Assembly (NCBI GenBank): GCA_021812825.1
Contig: JAKAMO010000014.1
Location: 1 to 38,038, forward strand
Source: a bacterium
GTDB taxonomy: Bacteria; Elusimicrobiota; Elusimicrobia; Elusimicrobiales; UBA9959
Direction of reading: 5' to 3'
Length of the DNA stretch: 38,038 nt
Shown here: positions 10,896 through 36,699 of the stretch, piece by piece
Layout of the letters: each line of letters begins with the position of its first letter
Numbering within the stretch: the first letter of the stretch is position 1
Program-made: the position numbers and the translations under genes
The notes under the pieces: generated by a model
Seen by the model: the letters and a program-made list of their open reading frames with translations, nothing else
The model's database searches: none
What the model was told of the DNA's origin: nothing

Positions 10896-10922
10896 TACCC
10901 TGGACCGCGGCACTGCGGACGC

Positions 10923-10943: not shown

Positions 10944-11087
10944 CCCCTCCCGATGAAAGCCGCCGCTCTTGGCTTAAGGGTCAGTAATGTGGTAGTTTGT
11001 AGATGCGGGGTTCCGTGTTCCCGTCGTGAGGAGGGATGACGCGGAGCCGCGTTCGATCTTGCGGCCGGCCAGCAGGGAGAAACCGTA

Positions 11088-12566: not shown

Positions 12567-12696
12567 GGGGTCTGCCTGATCGCTGGCCCCCGGTAATGCC
12601 GGGACCTCCTGCACATGGGCCTGCCGGGCTTTTCTGCCCTGGAGCCTGTCCGGGACGGGCGGTCCCTCCAGCGGCCGCGGCTGAAGGCGGCTCCCA

Positions 12697-12725
12697 TTGA
12701 AAATCGGAAAGATTTCTGCTATAAT
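12697..12725 (+). promoter_or_regulatory. Near-consensus sigma-70 promoter of the large cluster
   Basis: TTGAAA (12697-12702) is followed by 17 bases and TATAAT (12720-12725), with an extended TG two bases before the -10. Predicted start of transcription is about 12732. It is the only strong promoter I find ahead of the plus-strand gene train ending at 36699. Confidence 0.87.
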
Positions 12726-12731
12726 TAATAA

Positions 12732-12917
12732 TATAGTCGAAGTATCGCCGGCGTAAGCCGGCGGATGGCTAGCATGCGCGTAGGCGCGCGAACGAAATCC
12801 GGATCGGTGAGTGCCATGGGAGCAAGCCCGTGGCGGTCCGTGTGATATGCAACGCGTCCCGACCGTAGGGGCCGTTGCGCAAGGATGTGCTTTTCGCGCT
12901 TATCGGGGGCGGCGACT
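12732..12917 (+). promoter_or_regulatory. Structured 5' leader RNA, class unknown
   Basis: About 186 bases separate the promoter from the first gene. Four helices can be drawn: 12746-12763 (7 bp, GUAA GNRA loop); 12776-12789 (5 bp); 12800-12840, where CGGAUC pairs with GGUCCG and encloses an 8-bp hairpin (12813-12834) stacked on its 3' side; and 12849-12878 (6 bp with an inner helix). The two-level helix with a GNRA loop nearby is riboswitch-like, but I could not match it to SAM, cobalamin, c-di-GMP, glycine or preQ1 consensus elements. It could also be a passive stabilising leader. Confidence 0.55.
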
Positions 12918-13481
12918 ATGAAAAATAACCGCGATATCGTTATAAGGTTCTCGCTGGACTGGCTTCACCAGCCCGGCCTGCCTGCCTGGCTGGACAGGCT
13001 CGGCAGGACGCACCGGAAGACGGTGGTGGCGCTGATGGCCCTCATGTTCATCTGCTGGCATCCGGGCTTCATCGGCTCCGAGACGCTTACGCTGACCACT
13101 TATTACCCTGCCCCCTACGGCGGCTACGTCAGCATACTTACCACCAGCCAGACCCTGCTGGCCAGGGACGGCGGCAATGTTGGAATAGGCACCCCTTCCC
13201 CGGCCGCAAAACTCCACGTGGTCGGCAGCTTCGAGCTGCAGGACGGCACGCAGGCCAACGGCCGGCTGCTTACCTCGGACGGCAACGGCCTGGCCCGCTG
13301 GTCCGACCCGACGGTCCCGCTGGACTGTTCCTGGCAGAGCTATTCTTACGGCGTCGTCACGATGTGTCTCGGCGCCAAGACCGCCGTAGTGGCCGCCCGC
13401 GTCGGCAACCAGATGTACCAGATGGGCCCTCCCGGCGGTATACAGGCTACTGGCGAAATGCTTTGCTGCAGGTTGAGATAA
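12918..13481 (+). CDS. Elusimicrobia-type surface protein with TTYYPAPYG segment
   Basis: The 187-residue product has a basic N-terminus and one hydrophobic segment (about 37-53, 'VVALMALMFICWHPGFIG') that could anchor it or act as an export signal. Then come 'LTLTTYYPAPYGGY' and 'GNVGIGTPSPAAKLHVVG', a pattern common in Elusimicrobia surface proteins and phage-fibre-like repeats. The C-terminal part has four Cys, including a CC pair near the end. I chose ATG 12918 over 12885 because the longer form adds 11 residues unlike the family. Function is unknown. It is the first gene after the leader and lies 19 bases before hxsD. Confidence 0.75.
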   Translation: MKNNRDIVIRFSLDWLHQPGLPAWLDRLGRTHRKTVVALMALMFICWHPGFIGSETLTLTTYYPAPYGGYVSILTTSQTLLARDGGNVGIGTPSPAAKLHVVGSFELQDGTQANGRLLTSDGNGLARWSDPTVPLDCSWQSYSYGVVTMCLGAKTAVVAARVGNQMYQMGPPGGIQATGEMLCCRLR

Positions 13482-13500
13482 ACTGCGTTAGAGGATCAGC

Positions 13501-13962
13501 ATGAAAATACAGGTGAAGATAGATCTTTCCGTTTACCCTATCGAGTGCGTCTATGCCGCGGCATACACGTTCTCCAAGGCCGCGTACGTGAAGCTGGGCA
13601 AGGACAAGGGCGGCGCTCTCTCGGCCGTGCTGGAGTCCAAGAACGGCAAGTTCCCGGCGGGCCGCGACCTGGAGGGCGAGTTCCGCAACGAACTGCTGCA
13701 CCACGCTTTCCGCCTCAAGGTCTCGGCCGTGAACCAGGCCCTGCGCGAGAGGATAGTGGTCAGGGCCCTTCTTTCCGCGCAGCCCAGACCCGCGGAACCG
13801 GCGGCCGCCGCCCCGGTGCTGGACGCGGAGCTGGAGAAGGAGATCGAGAAGCTGCTGAAAGAGGCGGAGAGCGGCGACTACAAGACCGATGCTCTGGGAA
13901 TAGCCATACCGTGGGAAGAAAACAAAAATGCGAAGGCCAGAAAAGCAAAAAGAAAGAATTGA
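13501..13962 (+). CDS. hxsD: His-Xaa-Ser system protein HxsD-like
   Basis: The 153-residue protein matches the pattern of HxsD, the small partner of the His-Xaa-Ser RiPP-like system. It shows 'IDLSVYPIECVYAAAYTF', then 'GEFRNELLHHAFRLKV' and a following helix 'RERIVVRALL'. The family is usually about 100 residues; here a Pro/Ala linker and a Lys/Glu-rich tail (about 100-153) are added. HxsD is thought to assist the two radical SAM partners. GAGGA precedes the ATG at good spacing. It overlaps hxsB by 35 bases. Confidence 0.85.
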   Translation: MKIQVKIDLSVYPIECVYAAAYTFSKAAYVKLGKDKGGALSAVLESKNGKFPAGRDLEGEFRNELLHHAFRLKVSAVNQALRERIVVRALLSAQPRPAEPAAAAPVLDAELEKEIEKLLKEAESGDYKTDALGIAIPWEENKNAKARKAKRKN

Positions 13963-15397
13963 CTTCGACCCGAAGAAGACCGGTTTTCTGCGCTACAAGA
14001 AGTGGGGCGACGAATACCTGGTCACCAACGACATAGGCGAGCACGCCTTCATCTCCGGCGATGTCTTCTCGCGGCTGGCGGCCGGCAAGCTGGACAAGGA
14101 CTCGGCTGAGTACAAGGACCTCTCCCGCAAGGGCCTCGTCCGCGACTACATGGACTTTTCCGGCCTGGCCGAGAGGTGGCTCGAGAAGAACCATTTCCTC
14201 TTCTCCGGCCCGGCGCTGCACATAGCCGTGCTGACGCGGCGCTGCAACCACGACTGCGTGTATTGCCACGCCTCGTCCAAGAGGAGCGGCCGCGGCCTGG
14301 ACATGAACAGGGAGACGGCCTCCAGGGTGCTGGACGCCATCTTCGCTTCCCCGGCCGACAACATCACCATAGAGTTCCAGGGCGGGGAGCCGCTGCTCAA
14401 CTGGCCCGTGCTGGAGTTCGTGGTCAACGAGGCCGCCGCCCGCACGAAGACCTTCGATAAGAAGGTGAGCCTGAGCCTGGTCACCAACCTGTCGGCCATG
14501 ACCGGAGAGAGGCTGAACTTCCTGCTCAAGCACAACGTCGCCATCTGCACCTCGCTGGACGGTCCCGCCGACCTGCACGACAAGAACCGGGTGGCCACCG
14601 GCGGCAGCAGCCACGCCCAGGTCGTGAAGTGGTGGAAGACCATCAAGAAGCGCACGGCCAGGACCAAGAACGGGCCGGACGCCCTGCTCACGGTGACGCA
14701 GCAGTCCCTGGGGCGCCACAAGGACATAGTGGACGAATACGTCCGCATCGGCGCCCGCTCCATCTTCCTGCGCTTCCTCAATCCGTTCGGCGCGGCGAAG
14801 AAGGCCTGGCCTGGGATAGGCTACACGGCGCGGGAGTACATAGAGTTCTACACGAAGGCGCTGGACTACATCATAGAGCTGAACCTGAAGAAGAAGGCCT
14901 CCCTGGTCGAGCACACGGCCAGGATATTCCTGAGGAAGATCCTGACCGGCACCGACCCGAACTTCATGGACCTCCGGTCCCCCTGCGGGGCGGGGATAGG
15001 CCAGATCGCCTACGACTACGACGGCCGCGTCTTCACCTGCGACGAGGGGCGCATGCTGGCGGCGGAGGGGACCGATTCGTTCTGCATGGGCGACCTGAAG
15101 AAGGAGACCTACGCGGACCTGGCGTCGAGCTCAGTGGTGAAATGCGTGGTCACCGCGTCGGTCACGGACATACAGACGCTCTGCTCCTCCTGCGTCTACA
15201 AGCCCTACTGCGGCGTATGCCCGGTCTTCAACTATTCGGAGCACAACGACCTGTACATGCATCATCCCAACTTCCGGTGCGAGATCTACACCGGAGTGAT
15301 GGACTACCTGTTCGCGCGGCTGCGCGAGCCGAAGGTTAGGAAGCTGTTCGAATCCTGGGCCGGCAGCAGCGCCGGAGCGGCCGGGATACACGTATAG
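13928..15397 (+). CDS. hxsB: His-Xaa-Ser system radical SAM maturase HxsB-like
   Basis: The 489-residue enzyme begins with the domain typical of HxsB ('FLRYKKWGDEYLVTNDIGEH'). A radical SAM core follows with Cys106, Cys110 and Cys113 (CNHDCVYC), 'FQGGEPLL' and 'TSLDGPADLHDKNR'. The C-terminal SPASM part has 'SPCGAG', 'DGRVFTCDEG', 'CSSCVYKPYCGVCPV' and 'FRCEIY', enough for two auxiliary clusters. HxsB is expected to modify the His-Xaa-Ser peptide encoded 19 bases downstream. It overlaps hxsD by 35 bases, implying coupled translation; 'gggaag' upstream may serve as ribosome-binding site. Confidence 0.92.
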   Translation: MRRPEKQKERIDFDPKKTGFLRYKKWGDEYLVTNDIGEHAFISGDVFSRLAAGKLDKDSAEYKDLSRKGLVRDYMDFSGLAERWLEKNHFLFSGPALHIAVLTRRCNHDCVYCHASSKRSGRGLDMNRETASRVLDAIFASPADNITIEFQGGEPLLNWPVLEFVVNEAAARTKTFDKKVSLSLVTNLSAMTGERLNFLLKHNVAICTSLDGPADLHDKNRVATGGSSHAQVVKWWKTIKKRTARTKNGPDALLTVTQQSLGRHKDIVDEYVRIGARSIFLRFLNPFGAAKKAWPGIGYTAREYIEFYTKALDYIIELNLKKKASLVEHTARIFLRKILTGTDPNFMDLRSPCGAGIGQIAYDYDGRVFTCDEGRMLAAEGTDSFCMGDLKKETYADLASSSVVKCVVTASVTDIQTLCSSCVYKPYCGVCPVFNYSEHNDLYMHHPNFRCEIYTGVMDYLFARLREPKVRKLFESWAGSSAGAAGIHV

Positions 15398-15416
15398 ACC
15401 GAGAACGGGGCGAAAT

Positions 15417-15713
15417 ATGGCCGGAAAACAGAAAAAGAAACTGTCGGTAGACCTTTCCCGCTTCCTTTCGAGCGAGGAGGGCAAGATAGTCAAGAGCGAC
15501 GTGGTCAAGGCCGCGGTCGTCCTCGGACTGGTAGCCACCGCCGTCGGAGTGGTGACAGAGCACGCTGACGCGCTAGCGCATGCAAACTACTTCCACAGCA
15601 GCGGCAACGCGTCGGGCCACGTGAGTCACGCCTCGCACGGTTCGCACGGTTCGCACAGCAGCCACGGCTCGCACGGTTCGCACGGTTCGCACGGCAGCCA
15701 CGGGCAATGGTGA
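15417..15713 (+). CDS. hxsA: His-Xaa-Ser repeat peptide HxsA-like
   Basis: The 98-residue product has a basic N-terminus, a hydrophobic helix (about 30-46, 'VKAAVVLGLVATAVGVV') and a C-terminal tail of nine consecutive His-Xaa-Ser triplets ending HGQW. HxsA proteins are the presumed substrates of the HxsB and HxsC radical SAM enzymes. The hydrophobic segment suggests membrane insertion or export with the His/Ser tail outside. The tail could also bind metal before or after modification. It overlaps the start region of the next gene by 7 bases. Confidence 0.9.
   Translation: MAGKQKKKLSVDLSRFLSSEEGKIVKSDVVKAAVVLGLVATAVGVVTEHADALAHANYFHSSGNASGHVSHASHGSHGSHSSHGSHGSHGSHGSHGQW
15618..15698 (+). repeat. 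Nine in-frame 9-bp His-Xaa-Ser units
   Basis: The 81 bases encode HVS, HAS, HGS, HGS, HSS and four HGS. Serine codons vary (AGT, TCG, TCC-type and AGC), so the protein repeat is maintained without identical DNA units. Confidence 0.9.
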
Positions 15714-16756
15714 GCGCGATGAGGAAAGGCTACAGACCCGGGGCGATGTCCCCGAAGCTGCTTATCGGCCTGCTGGTGGCGCTGATGGGCGTGCTTTTCG
15801 CCCTGAAGATGGTCACCGACAGGAACGCCGCGAAGATAGGCATCGAGCAGCCGGCGGCTCCGGCCTACCCCGCGGCCCAGCAACAGGAGGTCGGCCAGGC
15901 GCTTCCTCCGGACGCCGCCGCGCTGGTCAGCCAGGCGTCGACCGATACCCAGAGCAATATCCCCCAGAGCGGCCAGTACGAAAGCGCCTCCGGCGGGTAT
16001 TATTCCCAGCCAGAGGACGTCCCGGTGAACGCGGCCGACAGCGACTGTATAAAGGCCTTCTCGGACAACCCGGACGCTATCGTCAGGCATTTCGACAAGA
16101 ACTTCCGGTTCTTCTTCAATACCAACAGCAACATGCCCGAGGATGAGACTATACTCGATCTCTTCCTGGACTACGGCGTCTGCCGGCTTATCAGCGGTGG
16201 CCGTCTCGACTGCGTCCAGCAGAACCTGGAGAGGGTCTGTTTCGCCGCCGATTACTACGATTTCATGTATTCGGCCCTGAACAGGAAGACGAACGACGGG
16301 AAATGCGAGAAGTTCGTTAACAACGCGTTCAGGGGGGGGCGTCCCAGCCCCGACTTCTGTCGGTTCATTACCGACTCTATCGCGAAGAGGCGGACCCCGG
16401 AGTGCCGCTCGCTCGGTCTGCCGCCCAACTGCGAATCCAACTTCCTGTTCATCAACGGGCGGGCGGCCTGCGGCAAACTGAGCGGCCCGCGGAAGAAAGA
16501 ATGCCAGCTCAGCGCCGCGCTGGTGAGGGGGGATTCCACCCCGGACGAGAAATGGCTGCTCCACGTGCTGCAGTCCAGGGACCCGTCGGTTTGCGCACCT
16601 TTGGCCAAGAAGCTCGCCACCGGCTACTGCACGAGCTCGTTCCGCCACAAGATAATGGCCGACATGGTAAAGCAGAAGGCTGAAGATGACAAGAGGATGG
16701 GCGTACAGCCGCAGGGCAAGCAGACCAAAGGAAAGGAACCGGCGAAGGGCCAGTAA
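15707..16756 (+). CDS. Membrane-anchored Cys-rich protein
   Basis: The product (349 residues; 345 if the ATG at 15719 is used) has one N-terminal transmembrane segment ('LLIGLLVALMGVLFAL'), a Gln/Ala/Pro-rich linker, and a domain from about residue 113 with twelve Cys. A Lys/Gln tail follows. The domain order includes 'CIKAF', 'DYGVCRLI', 'RLDC', 'SVCAPL' and 'GYC'. The same pattern forms the C-terminal domain of the HEAT protein at 35293-36699 ('EYGVCVSL', 'EACAPL', 'MFC'). I recognise no known family. The domain probably lies outside the cytoplasm with disulfides or bound metal, as a substrate, carrier or envelope partner of the Hxs/radical SAM system. Confidence 0.8.
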   Translation: MVSAMRKGYRPGAMSPKLLIGLLVALMGVLFALKMVTDRNAAKIGIEQPAAPAYPAAQQQEVGQALPPDAAALVSQASTDTQSNIPQSGQYESASGGYYSQPEDVPVNAADSDCIKAFSDNPDAIVRHFDKNFRFFFNTNSNMPEDETILDLFLDYGVCRLISGGRLDCVQQNLERVCFAADYYDFMYSALNRKTNDGKCEKFVNNAFRGGRPSPDFCRFITDSIAKRRTPECRSLGLPPNCESNFLFINGRAACGKLSGPRKKECQLSAALVRGDSTPDEKWLLHVLQSRDPSVCAPLAKKLATGYCTSSFRHKIMADMVKQKAEDDKRMGVQPQGKQTKGKEPAKGQ

Positions 16757-17633
16757 CTCGGCCCTTCCGGCCTGCCGCGGGGGCGCGCCGGCCCCGCAGC
16801 TGACCCTTATCCTCACCCGGCGCTGCCAGTCGGCGTGCCCCGAATGTCCCGTCGCGACCGGGCGGGCGGACATGCCCGCGGCGGTCCTGAAAAGCGCTAT
16901 AAAGCAGTATTGTTCCGCCGCCCTGGGGGGCGGCGCGGTCAAGTTTTTCGGCGGGGAGCCGCTGCTGCGCTTCGGGCTGGTGAGGACTGGCATAGGCATG
17001 CTGGAGGCGGCCGGCTACCGCGGCCGCGCGGAGGTGGGCACGAACGGCCTGCTGCTGGACGCGGCGAAGCTCCGGTATTTCTCGGCCCGGCCGTGGGTGC
17101 AGGTGAACATTAACTCCTCGGTGAGCGTCAGCCGCAGGTTCGCGGCCCTGCCCAACCTGATCTGGAACCTGCTGCTGCCCGAGCGCGACCCGCTTTCTTC
17201 GCTCGGGGTCCTGAAGCGCGTGATAGCCGCTTCGCGCGGACGACCGCCCAGGGTCAACGTCCTGCCGGCCTATTACCGGGAATGGACGCCGGCCGCCCTC
17301 GCCAAGCTCGCCAGGGCGCTGAGGCATATCAGGGAACTGGCCGATTCCGGGGCCGTTGTCATCGAGAACGCCTCGCGCGAAGGCCCGGTGCCGCTTTTCA
17401 ATCCCGGGACCACGGTGGACACTGACGGCAGGTGCTATCACTCCAACCTCGTCCTTGCCGCGAGGGACCCGGGCCAGGCCGCGCAGATGCTGGCCGGCGG
17501 GCTGGAGGCTCTGGGCGCCGGGAGCGGACGCCGTCCTGATTACTCCGGCATGGCGAAGAAGCTTTTCGGGGCCAAGGCCGTGGCCGGCGGGATGGCCGCG
17601 GACAGGCTGGCAGAGAGGATACTTCTTGGATAG
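16686..17633 (+). CDS. Radical SAM protein without SPASM domain
   Basis: This 315-residue protein has an Arg-rich N-terminus and a radical SAM core with Cys47, Cys51 and Cys54 (CQSACPEC) and 'KFFGGEPLL'. A later 'VDTDGRCYHS' resembles the start of a SPASM domain, but the rest of that cluster set is missing. It lies where hxsC might be expected, but its sequence does not look like HxsC, so no symbol is given. The only ATG in frame (16686) overlaps the Cys-rich gene by 71 bases and has a GAAGG site before it. Later starts would need a CTG codon. Confidence 0.83.
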   Translation: MTRGWAYSRRASRPKERNRRRASNSALPACRGGAPAPQLTLILTRRCQSACPECPVATGRADMPAAVLKSAIKQYCSAALGGGAVKFFGGEPLLRFGLVRTGIGMLEAAGYRGRAEVGTNGLLLDAAKLRYFSARPWVQVNINSSVSVSRRFAALPNLIWNLLLPERDPLSSLGVLKRVIAASRGRPPRVNVLPAYYREWTPAALAKLARALRHIRELADSGAVVIENASREGPVPLFNPGTTVDTDGRCYHSNLVLAARDPGQAAQMLAGGLEALGAGSGRRPDYSGMAKKLFGAKAVAGGMAADRLAERILLG

Positions 17634-17637
17634 AACT

Positions 17638-18765
17638 ATGACGGAAAGAACCGCCGCCCCGGAAAAGCGGAAATGGGTCAGGCTGACCAGGGCCTGCAAC
17701 AACCGCTGCCTTTTCTGTCTGGACGCGGACTCCATCTGCGGCGAACATCTGCCGCTCGGAGAGATAGAGGCCGACCTGAGGCGGGGCCGGGCGGAGGGCT
17801 GCCGCCGGGTGGTGCTGAGCGGCGGAGAGCCCACGATACACCCCAAATTCACGGCCATAGTGGCGAAGGCGAGGAAGCTCGGCTATACCCACGTGCAGGC
17901 CATCAGCAACGGGCGGATGTTCTGCTACGATGGCTTTCTGAAGCGCGCTGTGGCCGCCGGGCTCACCGAGATAACGTTCTCCGTGCACGGGGCCACCTCC
18001 GGGCAGCACGACGCGCTGGTCGGGGTCCCCGGCGCTTTCGCGCAGACCCTGCTGGCCATCGCCAACGCCAAGAAGGTGCCGGGCCTGATAGTCAGCAGCG
18101 ACATCGTGGTGAACAGGCTTAACGCCGACTCCGTCCGCGAGATAGTCGGCCTGCTGCACCGCCTCGGCGTGGACGAGTACGACCTGCTGAACCTGATACC
18201 TTTCGGCAGGGCGTGGGAGAACTGGAAGAAACTTTCCTATGACCCGGCTTCCAAGAGGAAGGTGCTGGAAAAGGTGTTCCGCTTCTCCGAATCCGTCAAC
18301 GCCCACGTCTGGACGAACCGCTTCCCCGCCGCAGTGCTGGAGGGCAACGAGCGGTATATACAGCACCCCGGCAAGCTGATGGACGAGGTGCGGGGGATGC
18401 GCCGGCCGCTGGAGGCCTTCCTGTACGCCGGAGAGGAGATGCACTGCAAGGGGGCGCGGTGCGCGTCCTGCGTGATGGCACAGTTCTGCTCGGACCTCGA
18501 GCTGCTGCGGGCGGAAGGTTCCCTTAAGACGGTCCCGGCGCCGGCCTGCCTGCCGGAGAAGCGGAGGGCCGTGAAAAAGATAACGCCAAGGGCCGGCCTG
18601 ATGAAGGTGGCCGAGTTCTTCATAGCGGAGAGGCTGACCGTGAAGGGTTCCGCCTGCCGACGCTGCCGGCTGGGCCCGGCCTGCCGCGGAGCCAGGATAT
18701 GGACCGTGATGGCCAGGGGTTTCTCGGCGTTGAAGCCGGTCCGTTCCGGGAGGTGCGTCGCATGA
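17638..18765 (+). CDS. Radical SAM protein with two C-terminal Cys-cluster motifs
   Basis: The 375-residue enzyme has Cys20, Cys24 and Cys27 (CNNRCLFC) and 'LSGGEPTIHP'. It carries the cluster's typical C-terminal C-x2-C-x5-C motif twice: 'CASCVMAQFC' near 280, and 'CRRCRLGPAC' near the end after an extra 70 residues. That suggests two auxiliary clusters or a duplicated tail. 'LIPFGRAWENWKKLS' is nearly shared with the gene at 24950-25837. The reading frame stays open upstream, but ATG 17638, 4 bases after the preceding stop, is the natural start. Its stop overlaps the next ATG. HxsC-like function is possible but unproven. Confidence 0.88.
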   Translation: MTERTAAPEKRKWVRLTRACNNRCLFCLDADSICGEHLPLGEIEADLRRGRAEGCRRVVLSGGEPTIHPKFTAIVAKARKLGYTHVQAISNGRMFCYDGFLKRAVAAGLTEITFSVHGATSGQHDALVGVPGAFAQTLLAIANAKKVPGLIVSSDIVVNRLNADSVREIVGLLHRLGVDEYDLLNLIPFGRAWENWKKLSYDPASKRKVLEKVFRFSESVNAHVWTNRFPAAVLEGNERYIQHPGKLMDEVRGMRRPLEAFLYAGEEMHCKGARCASCVMAQFCSDLELLRAEGSLKTVPAPACLPEKRRAVKKITPRAGLMKVAEFFIAERLTVKGSACRRCRLGPACRGARIWTVMARGFSALKPVRSGRCVA

Positions 18766-19748
18766 GCCGAACGGTACACGGCGCTGGAGCGAAGAAAGCC
18801 GCGGTGGAGCGGCTGGAGATACACGTTTCCTACACCTGCGAGAACAGCTGTCTGTTCTGCAGCGAGCGGAACAGGCTGCGCCGGTTCGGCTCGCTGGACC
18901 TGACGGGGTCGGAGATAGCAGGCATCCTGCGCGAGAAACGCAGGGCCGGCTTCTCCCACGTCACTTTCACCGGAGGAGAGCCGTCGTTGTGCGCCGCGCT
19001 GCCGGCCGCCCTCGGTGCGGCCAGGGCGCTTGGGTTCAGGACCAGCGTCACCACCAACGGCCTCGCCTTCGCCGATCCCGCTTTCGTCCGCCGTACCGCG
19101 CCGCTGCTGGACGAGGCCATGCTCTCCTGCCACGGACCTACGGCCAAGATACACGACGCGCTGACCGGCAGGAAGGGCAGCTTCGACGACGCCATGGCCG
19201 CGCTGGACAACCTGGGCAAGGCCGGCGGCGGCAGGCTGTTCCTGATGGTCAACACCGTGGCCGTCAAAAAGAACTTCAAGCTGGTCTCGGACATCCTGCG
19301 CCTGGTCTCCCGCTCTGGGTTCGTCCGGCATTACATGATCTCCAACCCGGCCCCGGAGGGCGGCGCCTGCGAGGACTACGCCTCGCTGGCTCCGGACCTC
19401 ACCGCCATAGGCCGGCGCATAGGGGACCTGCGGGAGCAGGCCGCGCTGTTCGGCGTGACGCTGCGCTTCTTCGGCGCGCCGGCCTGTTCGCTGAACGGTC
19501 ATTACGACCTTTCCAACGACCTCTACTACTCGCCGCGGCTGACCGTGGAGAGGGCGGCGCTCCCCGGCGGGCGCGCCGGCCTGAAGGAGACGGTCTCGCT
19601 GCGCCCGACGCGGCGGCGCGTCTATCTGAAGTCCTGCGGCCGCTGCGCGCTGCGGCGCTCCTGCGGAGGCATCTTCCGGAAGTATCTCGAGGCCTTCCCG
19701 GAGCAGGCCCCTTTCTTCCGTCCCATAACGGAGGTGAAGGCCGCATGA
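18762..19748 (+). CDS. Radical SAM protein with C-terminal auxiliary-cluster motif
   Basis: The 328-residue protein has Cys26, Cys30 and Cys33 (CENSCLFC), 'FTGGEPSL', 'TTNGLAF' and the C-terminal motif 'CGRCALRRSC' followed by GGIFRKYLEAF. A segment 'SNDLYYSPRL' followed by 'LKETV' is shared with the radical SAM gene at 20455-21474, so the two are close paralogues. I start it at 18762 because GGGAGG precedes that ATG and it overlaps the upstream stop as ATGA. Substrate unknown. Confidence 0.9.
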   Translation: MSRTVHGAGAKKAAVERLEIHVSYTCENSCLFCSERNRLRRFGSLDLTGSEIAGILREKRRAGFSHVTFTGGEPSLCAALPAALGAARALGFRTSVTTNGLAFADPAFVRRTAPLLDEAMLSCHGPTAKIHDALTGRKGSFDDAMAALDNLGKAGGGRLFLMVNTVAVKKNFKLVSDILRLVSRSGFVRHYMISNPAPEGGACEDYASLAPDLTAIGRRIGDLREQAALFGVTLRFFGAPACSLNGHYDLSNDLYYSPRLTVERAALPGGRAGLKETVSLRPTRRRVYLKSCGRCALRRSCGGIFRKYLEAFPEQAPFFRPITEVKAA

Positions 19749-26741: not shown

Positions 26742-26743
26742 CT

Positions 26744-27673: not shown

Positions 27674-27677
27674 AACT

Positions 27678-28889: not shown

Positions 28890-29836
28890 ACGGACCCCTG
28901 AAGCGGATAGACCTTAAAGTCGCCTTCGGCTGCAACAACATGTGCGTGTTCTGCGTGCAGGGCAAGAAGCGGGAGAAGCACCAGCCCAAGGACATGGCGC
29001 AGCTGCGCAGGGAGCTGAGGCGCGGCTACGAGGACGGCGGCCGGGAGCTGGTCCTGACCGGCGGCGAGCCCACGCTGCACAAGGAATTCCTGCAGATAGT
29101 GCGCGAGGCGAAGAAGACCGGCTACCGCAACATCCAGATCCAGAGCAACGGCCGCATGTTCCGCTACCCCGAGTTCTGCCGCGAGGCGGCGGCGGCAGGG
29201 GCCACCGAGGCCTCGCCGGCCCTGCACGGGTCCAGGGCGGAGATACACGACTACCTCACCGGAGCCGGGGGCTCGTTCCGCGAGACCGTGACCGGGATAA
29301 TGAACCTGAAGAAGGCGGGGTTCCGGGTCATCACCAACACCGTGATAACCAAACCCAACACGCAGGACCTGCCGGCCATAGCCACGCTGCTGGCCAAGCT
29401 GGGCGTGGACCAGTTCCAGTTCGCCTTCGTGCACATACTCGGCAGCGCCGCCGCGAACGCCAGGTGGCTGATCCCGAAGAAGACCGTGATGGAGCCTTTC
29501 GTGAAGCGCGGCCTGGACATCGGCCTTGCCGCCGGCCTGCGCGTTATGACCGAGGCCATACCGTACTGCTTCATGGGCGGCTACGAGGACTACGTGGCCG
29601 AGACGATAATCCCGCGCACCAAGATCTTCGACGCGGGGACCGTGATAGAGGATTTCGGTAAATACAGGCTGAACGAGGGCAAGGCCAAGGGGCCGAAGTG
29701 TCCGTCCTGCGCCTTCTTCGACAGGTGCGAGGGTCCCTGGCGCGAGTACCCGGAGCTTTTCGGCTGGGGCGAGTTCGTTCCGTGCCGCCCCGCCGCCGCG
29801 GGGGCGGGGCCGAAGCGGCGGAAGAGAGCGAAATGA
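28886..29836 (+). CDS. Radical SAM protein with C-terminal auxiliary-cluster motif
   Basis: The 316-residue protein has Cys16, Cys20 and Cys23 (CNNMCVFC), 'LTGGEPTLHKEF', 'QSNGRMF' and the C-terminal 'CPSCAFFDRC' followed by EGPWREYPELFGWGEF, an ending common in MoaA-like and twitch-type radical SAM proteins. 'ALHGSRAEIHDYLTG' is the shared middle stretch. The ATG overlaps the A24 stop (ATGA) with TGGAG upstream. Substrate unknown. Confidence 0.9.
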   Translation: MNGPLKRIDLKVAFGCNNMCVFCVQGKKREKHQPKDMAQLRRELRRGYEDGGRELVLTGGEPTLHKEFLQIVREAKKTGYRNIQIQSNGRMFRYPEFCREAAAAGATEASPALHGSRAEIHDYLTGAGGSFRETVTGIMNLKKAGFRVITNTVITKPNTQDLPAIATLLAKLGVDQFQFAFVHILGSAAANARWLIPKKTVMEPFVKRGLDIGLAAGLRVMTEAIPYCFMGGYEDYVAETIIPRTKIFDAGTVIEDFGKYRLNEGKAKGPKCPSCAFFDRCEGPWREYPELFGWGEFVPCRPAAAGAGPKRRKRAK

Positions 29837-30687
29837 AGACCTCCCGCCTGGTACTTTCCTGCGGCTGCAACCAGGACTGCCTGTTCTGCGACGCCGGCGG
29901 CGTGAAGCGGAAGGACGGGGCCGCCAGGCAGGCCGCCGCCCTGGCCGCCGAGCCCGGGCCCGCGCGGGTGAACGTGACCGGCGGCGAGCCCACGCTGCAT
30001 CCCGGCCTGCCCGGCCTCGTGCGCCGGCTGAAGAAGGGCGGCAAGTACGTGGCGCTGCTGACGAACGGCCTCAGGCTGGCCTCCGCCGATTACCTGGAGG
30101 AGCTGGCCGGGGCGGGCCTGGACGAGGTCGTGCTCAGCTTCTTCGAATCGGCCCCGGAGAGATACGACGCTCTCGCCGGGGTAAAAGGCGGCTTCGCCAA
30201 AAAGGAAGCCGCGCTGAAGAACCTGCGCCGCGCCGGGATAAGGACCGCCGTCAATTTCCTGGTCTATTCCGGCAACCAGTCCTCCGCGCCTGCCCTGGTG
30301 CGCGAACTGAGGAAGAAATACGGAGTTAAGGACATCGTGCTTTCTCTGCTGGAGCCGGACTGCGCGCGCGTCCGGGCCAGGCGCTGGCTGATACCCGACG
30401 CGGCCGCCGCGCTGCGCTCGCTTTCCGCCATAGCCGGCTTCCGCCGGAAGCTGGGGCTCAGGTGCATGCTGCCTGCCGGCGGGGCGGTGCCGCTCTGCGT
30501 GGCGGAGAAGCTGGGCCTGCCCTGCCCCGCCGGGGAGGTCTCCGGGGCCGATTTCCAGCCGCGCCTGCGGGTGAAGCCCGCCGGGGTCTGCTCCGCCTGC
30601 CCGCATTCCGTCTCCTGCCCCGGCTTCGTAAAGTCTTACGCGGTGGAGATGGTTAAATTCCTGGTGGCACGGAGGCGCCGTGGCTGA
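29833..30687 (+). CDS. Radical SAM protein with C-terminal auxiliary-cluster motif
   Basis: The 284-residue protein has Cys12, Cys16 and Cys19 (CNQDCLFC, with an extra Cys10), 'VTGGEPTLHPGLP' and 'LLTNGLRL'. The usual 'HG...HD' region is replaced by 'SFFESAPERYDALAGVKGGF'. The C-terminal motif is 'CSACPHSVSC' followed by PGFVKSY. The gap between the cluster motif and GGEP is unusually short. The ATG overlaps the previous stop (ATGA), with GGAAGAG upstream. Confidence 0.89.
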   Translation: MKTSRLVLSCGCNQDCLFCDAGGVKRKDGAARQAAALAAEPGPARVNVTGGEPTLHPGLPGLVRRLKKGGKYVALLTNGLRLASADYLEELAGAGLDEVVLSFFESAPERYDALAGVKGGFAKKEAALKNLRRAGIRTAVNFLVYSGNQSSAPALVRELRKKYGVKDIVLSLLEPDCARVRARRWLIPDAAAALRSLSAIAGFRRKLGLRCMLPAGGAVPLCVAEKLGLPCPAGEVSGADFQPRLRVKPAGVCSACPHSVSCPGFVKSYAVEMVKFLVARRRRG

Positions 30688-32443
30688 AGAAGCCGTTCCC
30701 ACGGGAGGCGTTTCCGGGGAAAGCCTCAGCAGACTTTCCCTTTCCGTTTCCGACGCCTGCGACAACCGCTGCGGCTACTGCGCCTGCGGGCTGTCCGGCG
30801 CCCTGGCCCCTGCCGGCAAGGTGCTGGCCGGGCTCAAATACGGCAGGTCCATGGGCCTCGATCACGTGGAGTTCACCGGCGGGGAGCCGGCCGCGCACCC
30901 CGGCCTGCCGGGGTTCGTGGCGGCGGCCCGCGCCATGGGCTACTCCACCATAGGCTTGTCCACCAACGGCCGCGGCTTGCTGCGCCCCGGCCTGGCCGCC
31001 GGCCTCGCCTCGGCGGGGCTGGGCTACGCCATAGTCTCGGTGCCGGCCGCCGACGGGAAGACCTACGCGCGCGTCTGCGGCGTCGGGCGCGAAGCCTTCG
31101 CGGAGAACCTCGCCGGCCTGCGCGCGGCCAGAACGGCCGGCATCAGGGAAGTGGGCGCGGCCGTGCCGGTGACGCGGGTCAACGCCGCGTCGCTCGGCGC
31201 CGTCCTCTCCCTGCTCGACGGCTTCGGCCTCTCCTTCATCACGCTGGCCAGGCCGCTGGCCGGCTATCCCGGCGGCGCCGCGCCGCGCGGCCTGCTGGAC
31301 CGGAAAGGCTTCGTCTCGGCCGTTAGAGCCGTGCGCGCCCGCATGGCCGGGCTATCGACCAGGGTCCTCGTGGAGGACCTGGGCGGCGACCTGGGCTTCC
31401 TGCCGCCCGCCAGCCGCATAGACGAGCTGAGGCGCAACAGGTACCTCTACTCCGACGCCGTAGGCGGCGGACGCCTCGTGATGCCCGACGCGGTCCTCGC
31501 CGGCGAAAAGCCCTCCGCCGGCCGGGACTTCCTGGCGGCGATAGACCTGCAGTACGGGGCCAGCGATTTCACCTGCGCCTTCGACTCGCGCGTCATACGC
31601 GGCAGGCAGTACCACCGGCTGGCGCGGGAGAAGCTGGACTTCGACCCGGGGTCTCCGGTTCTGGGCAGGTTCCTCTCCGTGGTGAACAAGGACAGGACCC
31701 TGAATATCTGGGGCAGGGACAGGGCCGACAGGTTCCCGGCGCTGGGTGAGCTCCTGCGGCGCTGCCGCGGCGCCGGCTACCGGAAGATCAGGCTCTGGAC
31801 CACCGGCCTCGCGCTGGACGACGCGGCGCTCGACGGTCTGGAGAAGCTGGGCGTGACCGGGCTGGAGCTGCCGATATACGGCGCCTCCGCGAAGACGCAC
31901 GACTCGGTCACCGGCCGGCCCGGCTCCTGGCGGAAGCTGATATCGCTGATGGAGAGGCTGGCCAAGCGAGACCGCCTGGACGTCAGCTTCCACGCGGTGG
32001 CGCTGAAGAAGAACGCGCGGGAGCTGCCGGCCCTGGGCGGGCTGGTCGGCTCCTACTCCGGCGACTGGGGCCTTTCCGTCTGGCATTACTACCCGGACAA
32101 CCAGGGCCCGGGCGGGGAGAAACGGTACCTGAGCGCGCTGCCCTCATATGCCAGCCTGGTAGAGGCCTACCGCCGCTCGCGGGCTTCCGGACGCGCCCAG
32201 TTCACGCTCTTCCCGGACTGCGTGGTGGACAGGCTGCGCGGCGTGTTCCCCGGAGCTTCCAGTTTCAGGCAGGCGCCGGCCGCCAGGCTGCTGGTCTTCC
32301 GGGACGGCTTATTTTATTATAATGAGATAAATTCCTCCGCCGAGTTCGGCCGGACGAGGCCCGCCTCCTGCGGCCCCTGCCGGCGCTGCCCCGGGGTCTT
32401 CTCGGAGTACCTGGGCAGGTTCGGGTCCGGGGAAATAGGATGA
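30680..32443 (+). CDS. Tandem radical SAM protein, second half degenerate
   Basis: The 587-residue protein is about twice the length of its neighbours. The first half is a normal core: Cys27, Cys31 and Cys34 (CDNRCGYC), GGEP at 67-70, 'LSTNGRG'. The second half (about 300-520) repeats the fold pattern with 'RRCRGAGYRKIRLWTTGLAL' and 'PIYGASAKTHDSVTGRPGSW', but has no CxxxCxxC. Where GGEPT-HP would be it reads 'IWGRDRADRFP' (343-353). It ends with a contracted Cys motif 'CGPCRRC' and PGVFSEYLGRFG. It looks like a fusion of an active and a catalytically dead paralogue. The start is GTG with GGAGG upstream, overlapping the previous gene by 8 bases. Confidence 0.85.
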   Translation: MAEEAVPTGGVSGESLSRLSLSVSDACDNRCGYCACGLSGALAPAGKVLAGLKYGRSMGLDHVEFTGGEPAAHPGLPGFVAAARAMGYSTIGLSTNGRGLLRPGLAAGLASAGLGYAIVSVPAADGKTYARVCGVGREAFAENLAGLRAARTAGIREVGAAVPVTRVNAASLGAVLSLLDGFGLSFITLARPLAGYPGGAAPRGLLDRKGFVSAVRAVRARMAGLSTRVLVEDLGGDLGFLPPASRIDELRRNRYLYSDAVGGGRLVMPDAVLAGEKPSAGRDFLAAIDLQYGASDFTCAFDSRVIRGRQYHRLAREKLDFDPGSPVLGRFLSVVNKDRTLNIWGRDRADRFPALGELLRRCRGAGYRKIRLWTTGLALDDAALDGLEKLGVTGLELPIYGASAKTHDSVTGRPGSWRKLISLMERLAKRDRLDVSFHAVALKKNARELPALGGLVGSYSGDWGLSVWHYYPDNQGPGGEKRYLSALPSYASLVEAYRRSRASGRAQFTLFPDCVVDRLRGVFPGASSFRQAPAARLLVFRDGLFYYNEINSSAEFGRTRPASCGPCRRCPGVFSEYLGRFGSGEIG

Positions 32444-32447
32444 GAAC

Positions 32448-33470
32448 ATGTACCTTCTAGTCGTGACCACCTGGGCCTGCAACCTGCGCTGCACTTACTG
32501 CAAGGTCCATTTCGAGAACAAGTATATACCCGAGGACTACCTCTTCAAGGCTGTGGACCTGCTCTGCGGCTCGCAGGACAAGGAGCTGAAGATGGAGTTC
32601 TTCGGCGGCGAACCGCTGCTGCTGCCGTTCGACCTGATCCGCAGGACGATAGAGTACGGCGAGCGCAAGGCGGCCTCGCTGGGCAAGACGGTCAAGTTCA
32701 TCATGACGACGAACGCGACGCTGCTCGACGAGGCGAAGATAGCCTATTTCAAGAAGCACGACGTGCTGCTGATAGTCAGCCTGGACGGCGACCGCCGCTC
32801 GCACAACAAGAACAGGCCGCGGATGGGCTGCAAGGACGAGACCTACCCGCTGGTGGTGAAGAACCTGCCGATGATCTTCCGCAACGGCCTGGACGCCTAC
32901 TGCTACACCGTGATCACGCCCGATACCGCGCCGCGGCTGCTGGAGAGCTTCAATTCGCTGGTGGAGCTGGGCTTCAAGAAGGTCTGGATAATGGTCTCCT
33001 GCGGCCCCAAGTTCACCGACGCCAAGCTGAAGCTGCTGAGGAAGAAGCTGAAGGAGCTGGTGCCGGCGGCGGTGGCCGCGCTGAAGGACAAGGGCGTGGC
33101 GCTGCTGAACGTTAAGAACTGGCTTTCGCCGATGCCGATGAACACCGAGCTGTCGGTGAACATCGACGGCAACATCTATTCCGCCTGCCTGGCCTACCTG
33201 GTCAAGGACGACGCCGTGCGCAACCGCTACATCCTGGGCCATATCTCCGACCCGGAGCTGAGCATAGACAAGCTGCACCCGGGCCGGCTGTCCAACACGC
33301 GGGCCATGTCCATCATCTACCGCGAGAACAACATCGTGGGCAACCTCCGGAACAACGTGAAGGCCGGCCTGCTGTTCACCGAGTTCGCGGGAGAGATGCG
33401 CAAGGCCCTCGCCAAAAAGCGGCTGCTCAAGAAATACAACGAGCTTACCAGCGACATAGAGGGGCGCTGA
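32448..33470 (+). CDS. Radical SAM protein, anSME/maturase-like core without full SPASM
   Basis: The 340-residue protein has Cys11, Cys15 and Cys18 (CNLRCTYC), 'FFGGEPLLLP', 'TTNATLL' and 'VSLDGDRRSHNKNRP', the style of SPASM peptide maturases. It differs from the 'GGEPTLHP' neighbours and is closer to HxsB. 'VNIDGNIYSACLAY' resembles the entry to a SPASM domain, but the remaining ligands are missing and the C-terminus is a Lys/Arg helix. It may modify a peptide such as HxsA. The start is 4 bases after the previous stop, and its stop overlaps the next ATG (TGATG). Confidence 0.88.
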   Translation: MYLLVVTTWACNLRCTYCKVHFENKYIPEDYLFKAVDLLCGSQDKELKMEFFGGEPLLLPFDLIRRTIEYGERKAASLGKTVKFIMTTNATLLDEAKIAYFKKHDVLLIVSLDGDRRSHNKNRPRMGCKDETYPLVVKNLPMIFRNGLDAYCYTVITPDTAPRLLESFNSLVELGFKKVWIMVSCGPKFTDAKLKLLRKKLKELVPAAVAALKDKGVALLNVKNWLSPMPMNTELSVNIDGNIYSACLAYLVKDDAVRNRYILGHISDPELSIDKLHPGRLSNTRAMSIIYRENNIVGNLRNNVKAGLLFTEFAGEMRKALAKKRLLKKYNELTSDIEGR

Positions 33471-34399
33471 TGCGGAGCGCGGGGTTCCTGCCCGGCCTGT
33501 TCAGGCTCCTCGGCGAGGGGGCCCCTCAGGTCCCGCCGGCCGGCCTGGCCGCCATCGCCGGGCTGTTCGCCGGCAGGGTGAAGGGAGAATGGCTGCCGCT
33601 CAACCAGAAGCTCGACGTCTGCGTCTCCTCCTCCGATCCGGGGGCCTTCCGCTTCAGCGTCAGCGATTTCGGCGAGCGCGGGGCGCTGGGCCGGGTGATA
33701 ATGCGCTATGCCGCTTCTTTCGGAGACAGCTACGACCTGGCCGCGCTCGGACGCTTCCTGAAGGCCGGCGCGGCGCTGGGCGCGGCCCATCAGACCACGC
33801 TGGGCCTGGACTGGGGCACCGGCCAGAACGCCCCGCGGCTGAAGGTCTACCACGAGGAACTTTATCCCGTCTATGACGGGCGGTTGAAGGCCGGCCTGCT
33901 TTCCGGGGCCTGCGGCCTGAAGAGGCTTCCGTCCAAGGCGGACCTGGACGCGCTGTCGGCCGTCTGTCTGGACCTGACGCCGGGCCGCGGCCGCGACTTC
34001 AAGCTCTATTTCAGGCGGGAAGCGCCGGCCGGGCTGCGCGTGCCGCCCTGGCAGAAGCGGACGATGGCGGGGCTGGGGCTGGAAAAGAAGTGCTTCTATT
34101 ACGAGATGCGCGGCGCCGGCTCCGGCCGGAGGAAGGCCTACAAGGTGTACGAGACCGGCGGAATAAGCGATCTTACCCCGGCGATGCGGGAGATCTGCGG
34201 GCTTTACGCCGCCGGAGGGCGCCCGGCGGCCCTGCAGAAGATACTCTCGCTCGTCGCCTACGCGAGGCGCGCCGGCATGACGATGGCGCCGGTGCTGTTC
34301 GCGGCCGGGGACGGGGCCGGGAAGTCAGGCAGGACGCTGGACGCCTATTTCTGCTTCAAGAAGGCCCCGGCCGGCCGGAAGCGCGGGGGGGCGCGATGA
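33470..34399 (+). CDS. Conserved-looking protein of unknown function
   Basis: I do not recognise this 309-residue protein. It has no radical SAM Cys motif, signal peptide or membrane helix. Three strand-like stretches share a Lys-x-Tyr pattern: 'RLKVYHEE', 'DFKLYFRRE' and 'KAYKVYE', with 'LGLDWGTGQNAP' before the first. That spacing recalls the repeating strands of ABBA-type aromatic prenyltransferases, where Lys/Arg and Tyr bind the diphosphate, but this is a weak resemblance. It is embedded between two radical SAM genes with overlaps at both ends (TGATG and ATGA), so it is certainly part of the pathway. Confidence 0.75.
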   Translation: MRSAGFLPGLFRLLGEGAPQVPPAGLAAIAGLFAGRVKGEWLPLNQKLDVCVSSSDPGAFRFSVSDFGERGALGRVIMRYAASFGDSYDLAALGRFLKAGAALGAAHQTTLGLDWGTGQNAPRLKVYHEELYPVYDGRLKAGLLSGACGLKRLPSKADLDALSAVCLDLTPGRGRDFKLYFRREAPAGLRVPPWQKRTMAGLGLEKKCFYYEMRGAGSGRRKAYKVYETGGISDLTPAMREICGLYAAGGRPAALQKILSLVAYARRAGMTMAPVLFAAGDGAGKSGRTLDAYFCFKKAPAGRKRGGAR

Positions 34400-35268
34400 G
34401 GTCGCTCAAGCTGATCACCGGCTACACCTGCAACAACTCCTGCGGCTTCTGCTGGGACAGGGAGTACCGCGGCAAGGCGCCGGACAAGAGCCACCGCGCC
34501 ATACTGGCGGAGCTGGTGGAGGCCAGGCGGGCCGGCGCGGAGGCGGTGGACGTGCTGGGGGGGGAGTCCTCGCTGAGGAAGGATATTTTCGCGATCTTCG
34601 GGGCGGCGAAAAGGCTGGGGTTCAGGCAGCGCATGCTGACCACCAACGGCTGGATGTTCGCCGACCGGAAGTTCGTCGCGGCCCTGCTGGAGGCGGGGGT
34701 GACCGAGGTGCGCTTCTCGGTGCACGGCGACAGGGCTTCCGTCCATGACGGGCTCACCGGCACGAAGGGCGGCTTCGCCCGCATACTGAAGGGCGTGGCC
34801 AATCTGCGCGCCGCCGGCTTCCGCAACATCTCGGCCAATACCACGGTGGTCAGGAAGAACGTCTCGCGCCTGCCGCGGATCAGGACCCTGCTGGGACGCC
34901 TGGGGATGACGAAGTGGAACATCATATACGTCGGAGAGCGGGCCGGGGAGATGCCGCACACCCCCAGGGTGAAGGACGCCGCGCCGGTCATAATCGAATG
35001 CCTGCGCGCCGGGGAGCCGGAAGCCGCGCTGATAAACGCGCCGGTGCCGTGCCTCTTCCGGGAGGTCAGCGACAGGGTGGAGATGTTCGAGCGCCAGGCC
35101 AGGCAGTACGTGGCCGGTAAGGGGCGTTTCCGGAAAGCGGACCGGAAGAAGCTTCCCGAGAGGAGGCGTATACCCGCCTGCCGCGGCTGCGCGATGCGCG
35201 GCGAGTGCGACGGCGTGTACGCGGACTACATAAGAAGATTCGGAACTGTGGAACTGCCACGGTCCTGA
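34396..35268 (+). CDS. Radical SAM protein, variant GGESS motif
   Basis: The 290-residue protein has Cys12, Cys16 and Cys19 (CNNSCGFC). The SAM motif reads 'LGGESSLRKD', with Ser in place of Pro. 'TTNGWMF', 'FSVHGDRASVHDGLTGTKGGF' and the C-terminal 'CRGCAMRGEC' followed by DGVYADYIRRFG place it in the same paralogue family as its neighbours. The ATG overlaps the previous stop (ATGA). It is the last plus-strand radical SAM gene of the train. Confidence 0.89.
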   Translation: MRSLKLITGYTCNNSCGFCWDREYRGKAPDKSHRAILAELVEARRAGAEAVDVLGGESSLRKDIFAIFGAAKRLGFRQRMLTTNGWMFADRKFVAALLEAGVTEVRFSVHGDRASVHDGLTGTKGGFARILKGVANLRAAGFRNISANTTVVRKNVSRLPRIRTLLGRLGMTKWNIIYVGERAGEMPHTPRVKDAAPVIIECLRAGEPEAALINAPVPCLFREVSDRVEMFERQARQYVAGKGRFRKADRKKLPERRRIPACRGCAMRGECDGVYADYIRRFGTVELPRS

Positions 35269-35292
35269 AGTCCCGGAGCGCCAGGAGGAGAA

Positions 35293-36699
35293 ATGAAGAG
35301 AACCGTATTGCGCATGCTGATGGTCCCTATAGCGCTGGCCGCGGCCGGGGTCCCGGCGCGGGCCGGAGAAGCGCCCGCCGCCCCGGCGGCGCAGGCCAGG
35401 TCCGTCAGGGAGGCCGCGATGCGCGAGGTGCGCGCCGCCTCGCTGGACGCTGAGAGCGAGAAGGCCCTGCTGCGCCTGCTCGAGTCTCCGGACGACAAGA
35501 AGCGCCAGGCCGCCAGGAATACCCTGGTAAAGGCGCGCGGCGAGAGGAACGTGACCGCCCTTATCGGCTTCCTCGGTTCCGACGAGTCCGAATTAAGGGG
35601 CGCCGCCGAAAGGGCGCTCGAGGACATGGGCGGGGACGCCGTGCCCGCCATACTGCGCGCGGCGGAGCGGAGCGGCCCGGCCGCGATGCTGTGGGAGATA
35701 AAGGTGCTGGGCGTTATAGGGGACAAGCGGGCCGTCGACTTCCTCGTGAAGAGCCTCAGAAACCCGGAGGAGCAGATAAGGGAGAAGGCCGTCCAGGCCT
35801 TGGGCAGGATAGCGGAGCCGTCCACTTATAAGCCGGTATCGGCTTTGCTGGGCGACCCCGGCATCTACGTGCGCACCAAGGCGCTGCGGGCGCTGGTGCA
35901 GATAGACAGGGACAAGGCCTTCGGGGCCGCCCTGGAGATGATGAAGGACAGGGACCCGCTGGCCAGGACCTACGCGGTGGAAGCCTTCGGTATGATCGAC
36001 AAGCCGGCGGCCGTGGACGCCGCGATAGTGGCGCTGAAGGACGATTCGCCGCGCGTGCGCGAGGCCGCCGTAGCCGCGCTGAAGAACATGCGCGGCGGCA
36101 AGGCCATCACCGCGCTGCGCGAGTACCGCAACAGCGGCGACGGCGGCGGGCAGCCGAAAGGCGAGGACAGGTGCGCCGGCCGGAAGGTGGACGTATCCAC
36201 CGTCATAGCGAACTATTCCGGCGACGCCAGGCATATGCCGGAGCAGCACCTGTGGGACGCGCTGGCGGAGTACGGCGTCTGCGTCTCCCTCTCGAAAGGC
36301 TCGCTGGAGGGCTGCGCTCCGCTGAGCTCCATACATCCGGACCTCAAGCGTACCTGCGAGGAGGCGGCCCTGCCGTACCTCTCGGCCTACGCCGCGCTCA
36401 GGGACGGGAGGAATAAGTACGACGGCTTCTGCTCCGGCTGGGCGGAGCTGGCCCGCCCGAAGTCCGGGGCCGCGTTCTGCGGCGAATATTACAAGCTGCT
36501 GACGGCCGCGTCGCCGAAGAGGTGCTGGAACCCGCTGATGAACCCGGAGACCTGCCTGATCCCGGAAATGCTGGACTTCGTCCGCGCCGTCAGGGCCGGC
36601 AAAGGGGAGGACTGGCGCTACCGCGCGGCTTCCTCGCGCGGCCCGGAGGCCTGCGCGCCGCTCTCGGAAAAGATAATGAAGATGTTCTGCTTCGAATAG
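35293..36699 (+). CDS. Secreted HEAT-repeat protein with C-terminal Cys-rich domain
   Basis: The 468-residue product starts with a signal peptide (about 1-24, ending 'PARAGE'). HEAT/PBS-lyase-type repeats follow from about 40 to 285 ('DAVPAILRAAERSG', 'RAVDFLVKSLRNPEEQIREK', 'SPRVREAAVAALKNM'), then a domain with ten Cys (about 294-468). This last domain matches the one at 15707-16756: 'EYGVCVSL' versus 'DYGVCRLI', and 'SRGPEACAPLSEK' then 'FC' versus 'SRDPSVCAPLAKK' then 'YC'. HEAT arrays are protein-binding scaffolds, and lyase relatives bind tetrapyrroles. The gene has GGAGGAG upstream and closes the train 24 bases after the last radical SAM gene, converging on the HemN-like gene. Confidence 0.85.
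   Translation: MKRTVLRMLMVPIALAAAGVPARAGEAPAAPAAQARSVREAAMREVRAASLDAESEKALLRLLESPDDKKRQAARNTLVKARGERNVTALIGFLGSDESELRGAAERALEDMGGDAVPAILRAAERSGPAAMLWEIKVLGVIGDKRAVDFLVKSLRNPEEQIREKAVQALGRIAEPSTYKPVSALLGDPGIYVRTKALRALVQIDRDKAFGAALEMMKDRDPLARTYAVEAFGMIDKPAAVDAAIVALKDDSPRVREAAVAALKNMRGGKAITALREYRNSGDGGGQPKGEDRCAGRKVDVSTVIANYSGDARHMPEQHLWDALAEYGVCVSLSKGSLEGCAPLSSIHPDLKRTCEEAALPYLSAYAALRDGRNKYDGFCSGWAELARPKSGAAFCGEYYKLLTAASPKRCWNPLMNPETCLIPEMLDFVRAVRAGKGEDWRYRAASSRGPEACAPLSEKIMKMFCFE

Follow-up and report, generated by a model that had tools for sequence, protein, structure and literature searches.

Positions 1 to 38,038 of contig JAKAMO010000014.1 (assembly GCA_021812825.1, Elusimicrobiota), a 38,038-nucleotide stretch called the window throughout, carry a run of plus-strand genes in which a His-Xaa-Ser (Hxs) peptide system, a large set of radical S-adenosylmethionine (SAM) proteins and a nitrogenase-like complex stand in one row. 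Judging from gene content, gene order, conserved residues and co-occurrence, we put at about even the chance that this run is an Hxs operon for peptide maturation that has expanded and acquired a nitrogenase-like reductase, with both parts serving one pathway. The pairing recurs beyond the window, in other genomes.

Nitrogenase paralogues beside radical SAM genes are already known in Elusimicrobia, where Meheust et al. in 2020 reportedly described a paralogue termed “group VI” next to a radical SAM suite, and the Hxs system is said to go back to Haft and Basu. To our knowledge, neither the product of the Hxs peptide nor the substrate of the Elusimicrobia paralogue has been established, both being orphan systems. 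The former study is cited in an excerpt of PMC11257099, and Haft and Basu are cited for Hxs in an excerpt of PMC9062424; a link between Hxs and nitrogenase was not found in the open-licence literature searched. The window resembles group VI in that its nearest relatives are Elusimicrobia metagenome-assembled genomes (MAGs) and its nitrogenase component genes adjoin many radical SAM genes, but differs in that the operon is tied to an Hxs peptide system.

A preliminary description of the window, made from its letters, had counted about 23 co-directional and tightly packed genes, fourteen CxxxCxxC proteins and two nitrogenase-like genes, and these counts agree with ours. The 23 genes span 12885-36699, overlap at 15 of their 22 junctions and leave a widest gap of 24 nt. 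CxxxCxxC occurs in 14 proteins, 13 of which reach the PF04055 cut-off, rS1 being the lone protein below it (21.6 vs. 29.5 bits), and Pfam matches define a NifH-NifD fusion and a NifK-like partner. The longest frame of the first gene opens at 12885; by comparison with the related locus L001, the start probably lies near 12918. The features are as follows.

12697..12725, +, sigma-70-like promoter TTGAAA-17-TATAAT (11/12 matches; similar sites in L001 and L002)
12918..13481, +, orf1, first gene, small protein with hydrophobic N-terminal segment and TLTTYYPAPYGGY motif
13501..13962, +, HxsD-like (TIGR03976 48.2 bits, cut-off 50)
13928..15397, +, HxsB radical SAM/SPASM maturase (TIGR03978 489.4 bits, cut-off 370)
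15417..15713, +, HxsA4 peptide (NF038313 64.4 bits, cut-off 55)
15707..16756, +, CysTM, N-terminal hydrophobic segment and Cys-rich domain (BLASTP to last gene)
16686..17633, +, rS1, weak radical SAM, nearest rS12/HxsB (CQSACPEC; PF04055 21.6, cut-off 29.5)
17638..18765, +, rS2 radical SAM, HxsC-like (PF04055 66.9)
18762..19748, +, rS3 radical SAM, HxsC-like (PF04055 57.4)
19745..20476, +, rS4, short radical SAM without CxxCx5C auxiliary motif (PF04055 53.0)
20455..21474, +, rS5 radical SAM, HxsC-like (PF04055 47.2)
21467..23683, +, NifH-NifD-like fusion (PF00142 221.8 and PF00148 54.6)
23664..24953, +, NifK/BchN-like partner subunit (PF00148 141.2)
24950..25837, +, rS6 radical SAM, HxsC-like (PF04055 45.1)
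25827..26741, +, rS7 radical SAM, HxsC-like (PF04055 54.5)
26744..27673, +, rS8 radical SAM, conserved across related clusters (PF04055 74.5)
27678..28889, +, A24 (prepilin/leader) peptidase-like membrane protein (invariant motif residues)
28874..29836, +, rS9 radical SAM, HxsC-like (PF04055 90.2)
29833..30687, +, rS10 radical SAM (PF04055 76.9)
30680..32443, +, rS11 radical SAM, two domain matches (PF04055 72.9, 2 stretches)
32448..33470, +, rS12 radical SAM, PapB/HxsB-like (PF04055 45.2; NF047865 143 bits, cut-off 340)
33470..34399, +, protein of unknown family (no family match at 0.001; present in L001 and L115)
34396..35268, +, rS13 radical SAM, HxsC-like (PF04055 72.6)
35293..36699, +, HEAT-repeat protein, last gene, Cys-rich domain as in CysTM (PF13646 101.1 bits)

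At the front of the operon HxsB and HxsA4 exceed the cut-offs of their families, and the HxsD-like protein falls 1.8 bits below that of TIGR03976, its relative in locus L124 scoring 52.7; the Hxs front named in the preliminary description is borne out, with HxsD just short of its cut-off. HxsA4 begins with a leader containing FLSSEEGKI, continues with a hydrophobic stretch and finishes with a (GSH)n tail ending in HGQW; the leader is of a conserved FLxSEEGKI-like form. Orf1 has no Pfam or NCBIfam match, and its homologues are placed close to the front in other Hxs clusters. Along with these scores, the window shares with the Hxs system (TIGR03976-TIGR03978, NF038313, NF038332) the compact hxsD-hxsB-hxsA order, but it adds a nitrogenase-like complex and an A24-like peptidase, and about ten divergent paralogues apparently take the HxsC role.

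HxsC4 or HxsC is the best-scoring model for 10 of the 13 rS proteins, all far below cut-off, the highest TIGR03977 score being 106.3 (28874-29836) against a cut-off of 267.9. HxsB, rS1 and rS12 are mutually most alike. A C-terminal CxxCx5C is common to nine proteins (rS2, 3, 5, 6, 7, 8, 9, 10, and 13), rS11 bears a shorter form of it and rS4 has none; the two radical-SAM-like domain matches of rS11 come with just one CxxxCxxC, and its second domain looks degenerate. A tree of 122 proteins, drawn from the window and from 19 loci, places rS8 in a clade of 12 tips (support 1.0) that takes in relatives from ten other loci; rS2 and rS9 also have relatives in many clusters, at lower support (0.7-0.8). 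Close partners of rS5 and rS6 were found only in L001 and L002, and those of rS12 only in L001.

In the NifH-NifD fusion the Fe-protein cysteines C93 and C129 and the Walker A motif are intact and invariant in all ten aligned NifHD proteins, as are C342 and C417 of the D part. In the K part, C42, beside D38-G39, is the sole invariant cysteine among 14 sequences. A P-cluster needs six cysteines, and the full set is missing from D and K, where the invariant ones are C342, C417 and C42. With so few invariant cysteines, the complex would be expected to have a single [4Fe-4S] cluster bridging its subunits, the arrangement of DPOR, and not a P-cluster with FeMo-co.

The NifH domain scores 213.4 with TIGR01287 (cut-off 394.35) and best with CfbC (222.3, cut-off 402), the K subunit scores best with BchN (54.1, cut-off 324), and a structural model of the K subunit, whose predicted local distance difference test score (pLDDT) is 84.8, resembles chains of nitrogenase component 1, of NifEN and of DPOR to about the same degree. 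DPOR/COR and CfbCD, with a NifH-like component and a BchN/BchB-like fold, are thus among the best hidden Markov model relatives, but the window subunits fall below every curated cut-off among the matches listed and have few conserved cysteines, and 17 of 46 host genomes lack HemB and full HemC. Another system joining a nitrogenase-like enzyme to a radical SAM enzyme is IsrBHDK of isethionate assimilation (PMC11423573), where, as in the window, a radical SAM partner goes with NifHDK-like genes; the excerpt of that source names one radical SAM gene in a sulfonate context and mentions no peptide gene. Locus L007 carries three NifHD/NifK-like sets within about 13 kb (4709-18150) and several genomes hold 4-7 NifK matches, fragments counted, so that the paralogue has multiplied.

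Two accessory features accompany these parts. In the A24-like protein, D25, N33 and WPAGDAK are invariant in nine of nine sequences, which includes two Asp sites, D25 and D103 (in GDAK), and the GDxK motif, residues that we take to be catalytic in A24 leader peptidases. PF01478 gives 26.5 bits for a relative in L012 (equal to the cut-off), 18.8 for one in L020 and no match for the window protein or that of L002; the fold model is of modest confidence (pLDDT 70.6), and Foldseek returned nothing under E 0.001 for it. The protein is a candidate A24 peptidase, by its motif only. The second feature is a Cys-rich domain common to CysTM, at the Hxs end (15707-16756), and the last gene (35293-36699; BLASTP E 7e-7). 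A diverged CysTM copy occurs in L002, and a wider family was not seen in a large protein search, which found two proteins, one of them the window's own.

Related loci were collected by a scan of genome contigs, from which the best 80 of a larger number were kept, and the nearest relatives of the window are MAGs, most of them named Elusimicrobia. L001 (NifHD 85% identical) reproduces the complete set of 23 genes in the order of the window, and L002 (NifHD 64% identical) keeps the order through rS9. In the distant L124 (NifK 37% identical), consecutive frames that overlap or nearly touch read HxsD-HxsB-HxsA4, an HxsC-like radical SAM protein, NifH-NifD-NifK, radical SAM proteins of the rS2 and rS8 kinds, the A24-like protein, one of the rS9 kind and a further radical SAM protein, with HxsD, HxsB and HxsA4 over cut-off. 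Among the 80, HxsB, HxsD or HxsA4 accompanies 6 of the 25 loci with this NifK (at least 100 bits; some of them come from one genome or contig) and none of the other 55, although three of these (L014, L017 and L025) are probable members of the clade in which NifK is cut off. On the NifK tree, the loci with adjacent Hxs genes are scattered, though ten of the loci in it were fetched because of that adjacency; HxsB lies within 5 kb of NifK in L021 and L027, from “Deltaproteobacteria” MAGs outside the second-phylum match list described below. Conversely, the HxsA4 regions fetched from genomes without this NifK (L129-L135) hold radical SAM arrays in 7/7 cases and an A24-like gene in 2/7, which suggests a core formed by the peptide system, to which the nitrogenase-like enzyme was added.

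The preliminary description had named a genome search for joint occurrence of the Hxs and nitrogenase-like families as a check on their coupling, and NifK and HxsA4 do co-occur in two phyla. The first, that of G002 (Elusimicrobia bacterium GWA2_56_46), comprised 340 genomes, 46 with NifK at E < 1e-40 (58 at 1e-3, the 12 weaker ones scored as absent) and 93 with HxsA4 at 1e-3, 79 of them over cut-off. HxsA4 was matched at 1e-3 in 44 of the 46 NifK genomes vs. 49 of 294 others, and over cut-off in 41/46 vs. 38/294, with G002, G120 and G148 below. Of the two exceptions, G007 has an HxsB over cut-off 11.6 kb from NifK; the other is G231. HxsA4 and NifK share one contig in 20 of the 44 genomes, 18 times within about 25 kb, where contig shares predict 0.98 for those 20 and a generous estimate 4.4 for all 44; as a control, HemB is on the NifK contig in 1 of 29.

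The second phylum, that of G008, which includes the Myxococcales MAG SURF_8 (G016), comprised 377 genomes, 39 with NifK at E < 1e-40 (47 at 1e-3, 8 weaker scored as absent). All 39 match HxsA4 at 1e-3, against 162 of 338 others, and at least 37/39 do so over cut-off against at most 78/338. Fisher tests, with no correction for descent, give 1e-26 (first phylum) and 4e-12 (second phylum), and the 14 control genomes yielded a single HxsA4 match at 1e-3, in Corynebacterium glutamicum, and nothing above the cut-off. In the first phylum, then, NifK and HxsA4 are often physically linked, and in the second they are linked only at the level of the genome. HxsA4 occurs in more genomes than NifK, and therefore the nitrogenase looks like an add-on to the peptide system.

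The tails of HxsA4 fall into classes ending in HG[QAS]W, GSY, RGGWC(NPRC), HFSF or GSGT (L081, L129, L131, L133, L134, L135 and others). HG[QAS]W or GSY tails occur in 35 of 44 nitrogenase-bearing genomes vs. 17 of 38 without (p 0.0014), a genome with two tail classes being counted as W or Y; the 38 are those of the 49 HxsA4-matching genomes with listed rows, the other 11 having E above 2e-7.

The region around the operon was also surveyed. The promoter-like site at 12697-12725 matches 11 of 12 consensus positions and has counterparts 5′ of the first gene in the orthologous operons of L001 and L002 (TTGAAA-17-TATACT and TTGAAA-17-TAAACT), and 12500-32400 holds three promoter-like sites against a mean of 1.2 in shuffles. 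The run had been called promoter-led in the preliminary description; the near-consensus site is consistent with this, and the 23 genes are predicted to be co-transcribed. A riboswitch in the leader was considered and rejected: no Rfam match reaches the gathering score in the whole window, a relaxed threshold gives only weak matches in 12600-12900 (E 1.5 or worse), the leader fold has a z-score of -1.72 and the leader is not conserved in L001 or L002. Directly upstream of the promoter, 11088-12566 (+) encodes a B12-binding, BchE-like radical SAM protein (213.8 bits, cut-off 481.35), and 36707-37981 (-), convergent with the operon end at a distance of 7 bases, a HemN/HemW-type radical SAM protein. 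Outside the operon, 9165-10652 (-) encodes a PapB-like radical SAM/SPASM protein (215 bits, cut-off 340), a candidate for a further peptide maturase.

If the genes do form one pathway, HxsA4 would be made as a precursor with leader, hydrophobic segment and (Gly-Ser-His)n tail, and HxsB together with the HxsC-like radical SAM enzymes would act on the tail, or on a group that it carries, by oxidation or cross-linking. The NifH-like domain would send low-potential electrons, driven by ATP, to the single [4Fe-4S] cluster between the D- and K-like subunits, which would then reduce one intermediate of the same pathway. The leader would be removed by the A24-type membrane peptidase, and the product, together with the Cys-rich and HEAT proteins, would have its place of action at the membrane or beyond it. 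The specific placement of the reductive step, with the ATP-driven nitrogenase-family enzyme as a tailoring enzyme for a group that radical SAM proteins have made on the (Gly-Ser-His)n tail, is a tentative proposal whose truth we rather doubt.

Several observations weigh against the one-pathway interpretation. No Hxs gene lies within 10 kb in 19 of the 25 loci of the nitrogenase clade, several of which end at contig edges, and among the 37 second-phylum genomes whose rows were listed there is no case of NifK and HxsA4 on one contig. G231 has NifK with neither an HxsA4 match nor an over-cut-off HxsB. Co-occurrence is uncorrected for descent and the completeness of the genomes is not given, and the tail classes, confounded by descent, differ just moderately with nitrogenase presence and are suggestive at most. 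The HxsC-like proteins score far below the curated HxsC and HxsC4 cut-offs, and both the modification of HxsA4 and its contact with NifHDK are predictions. The preliminary description held the coupling to be more than chance adjacency, a claim that clusters regularly lacking Hxs genes would undo; such clusters are in part what the 19 loci and the second phylum present, while the order kept in L001, L002 and L124 and the co-occurrence in both phyla speak for the coupling.

These same absences are what one would see if radical-SAM-rich islands accumulate in these lineages, the Hxs and nitrogenase modules being hitchhiking neighbours that act separately, and genomes with 4-7 NifK matches (fragments counted) fit such an account as well. 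Co-occurrence in 44/46 and 39/39 genomes, the interleaved order conserved in L001, L002 and L124 and the Cys-rich domain common to the Hxs-end gene and the last gene argue against it, and we regard it as unlikely. Nitrogenase plus radical SAM logic is known for FeMo-co, and by this precedent NifHDK and the radical SAM proteins could build a metal cluster or small cofactor in the manner of NifEN and NifB, which the His-rich HxsA4 tail would bind or store. NifEN chains are among the fold matches of the K model, but NifB is not named among the window matches listed, and HxsB and many radical SAM proteins accompany HxsA4 without NifK, so that the peptide system does not need the nitrogenase-like enzyme; to this explanation we give little credence.

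Equally little goes to the view that the nitrogenase-like enzyme reduces a tetrapyrrole to a new cofactor, which the Hxs peptide would carry or deliver, or to which it would be unrelated. Tetrapyrrole modification has been suggested for the group VI paralogue, as an excerpt of PMC11257099 repeats, and the best scores of the NifH domain and K subunit (CfbC, BchN) and the BchE-like and HemN-like flanking genes agree with it. In L001, however, the position directly upstream of the operon is taken by a second NifK/NifH-like pair (L001 1-1302) and not by a BchE-like gene. HemB and HemC occur in the same 29 of the 46 first-phylum NifK genomes, including G001, which has the closest operon, but 17 lack HemB and full HemC, among them G002 with the second-closest operon; G152, also of this group, has a 24-bit HemC fragment slightly over the Pfam cut-off. 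HemA, tested in 16 of the 46, is absent from 11/11 Hem-less genomes and present in 5/5 others. Because of these 17 genomes, a tetrapyrrole made by de novo synthesis is unlikely to be the general substrate, which weakens the tetrapyrrole half of the preliminary description.

Under the peptide-maturation reading, a relative of nitrogenase may take part in making a modified peptide. Should the reductase act on HxsA4 itself, a peptide would replace N2, tetrapyrroles or small sulfur compounds as the substrate of a nitrogenase-fold enzyme, and nitrogenase-type chemistry would extend to ribosomal peptides. The tie between Hxs and the nitrogenase paralogue in two phyla gives each of these orphan systems a testable partner.

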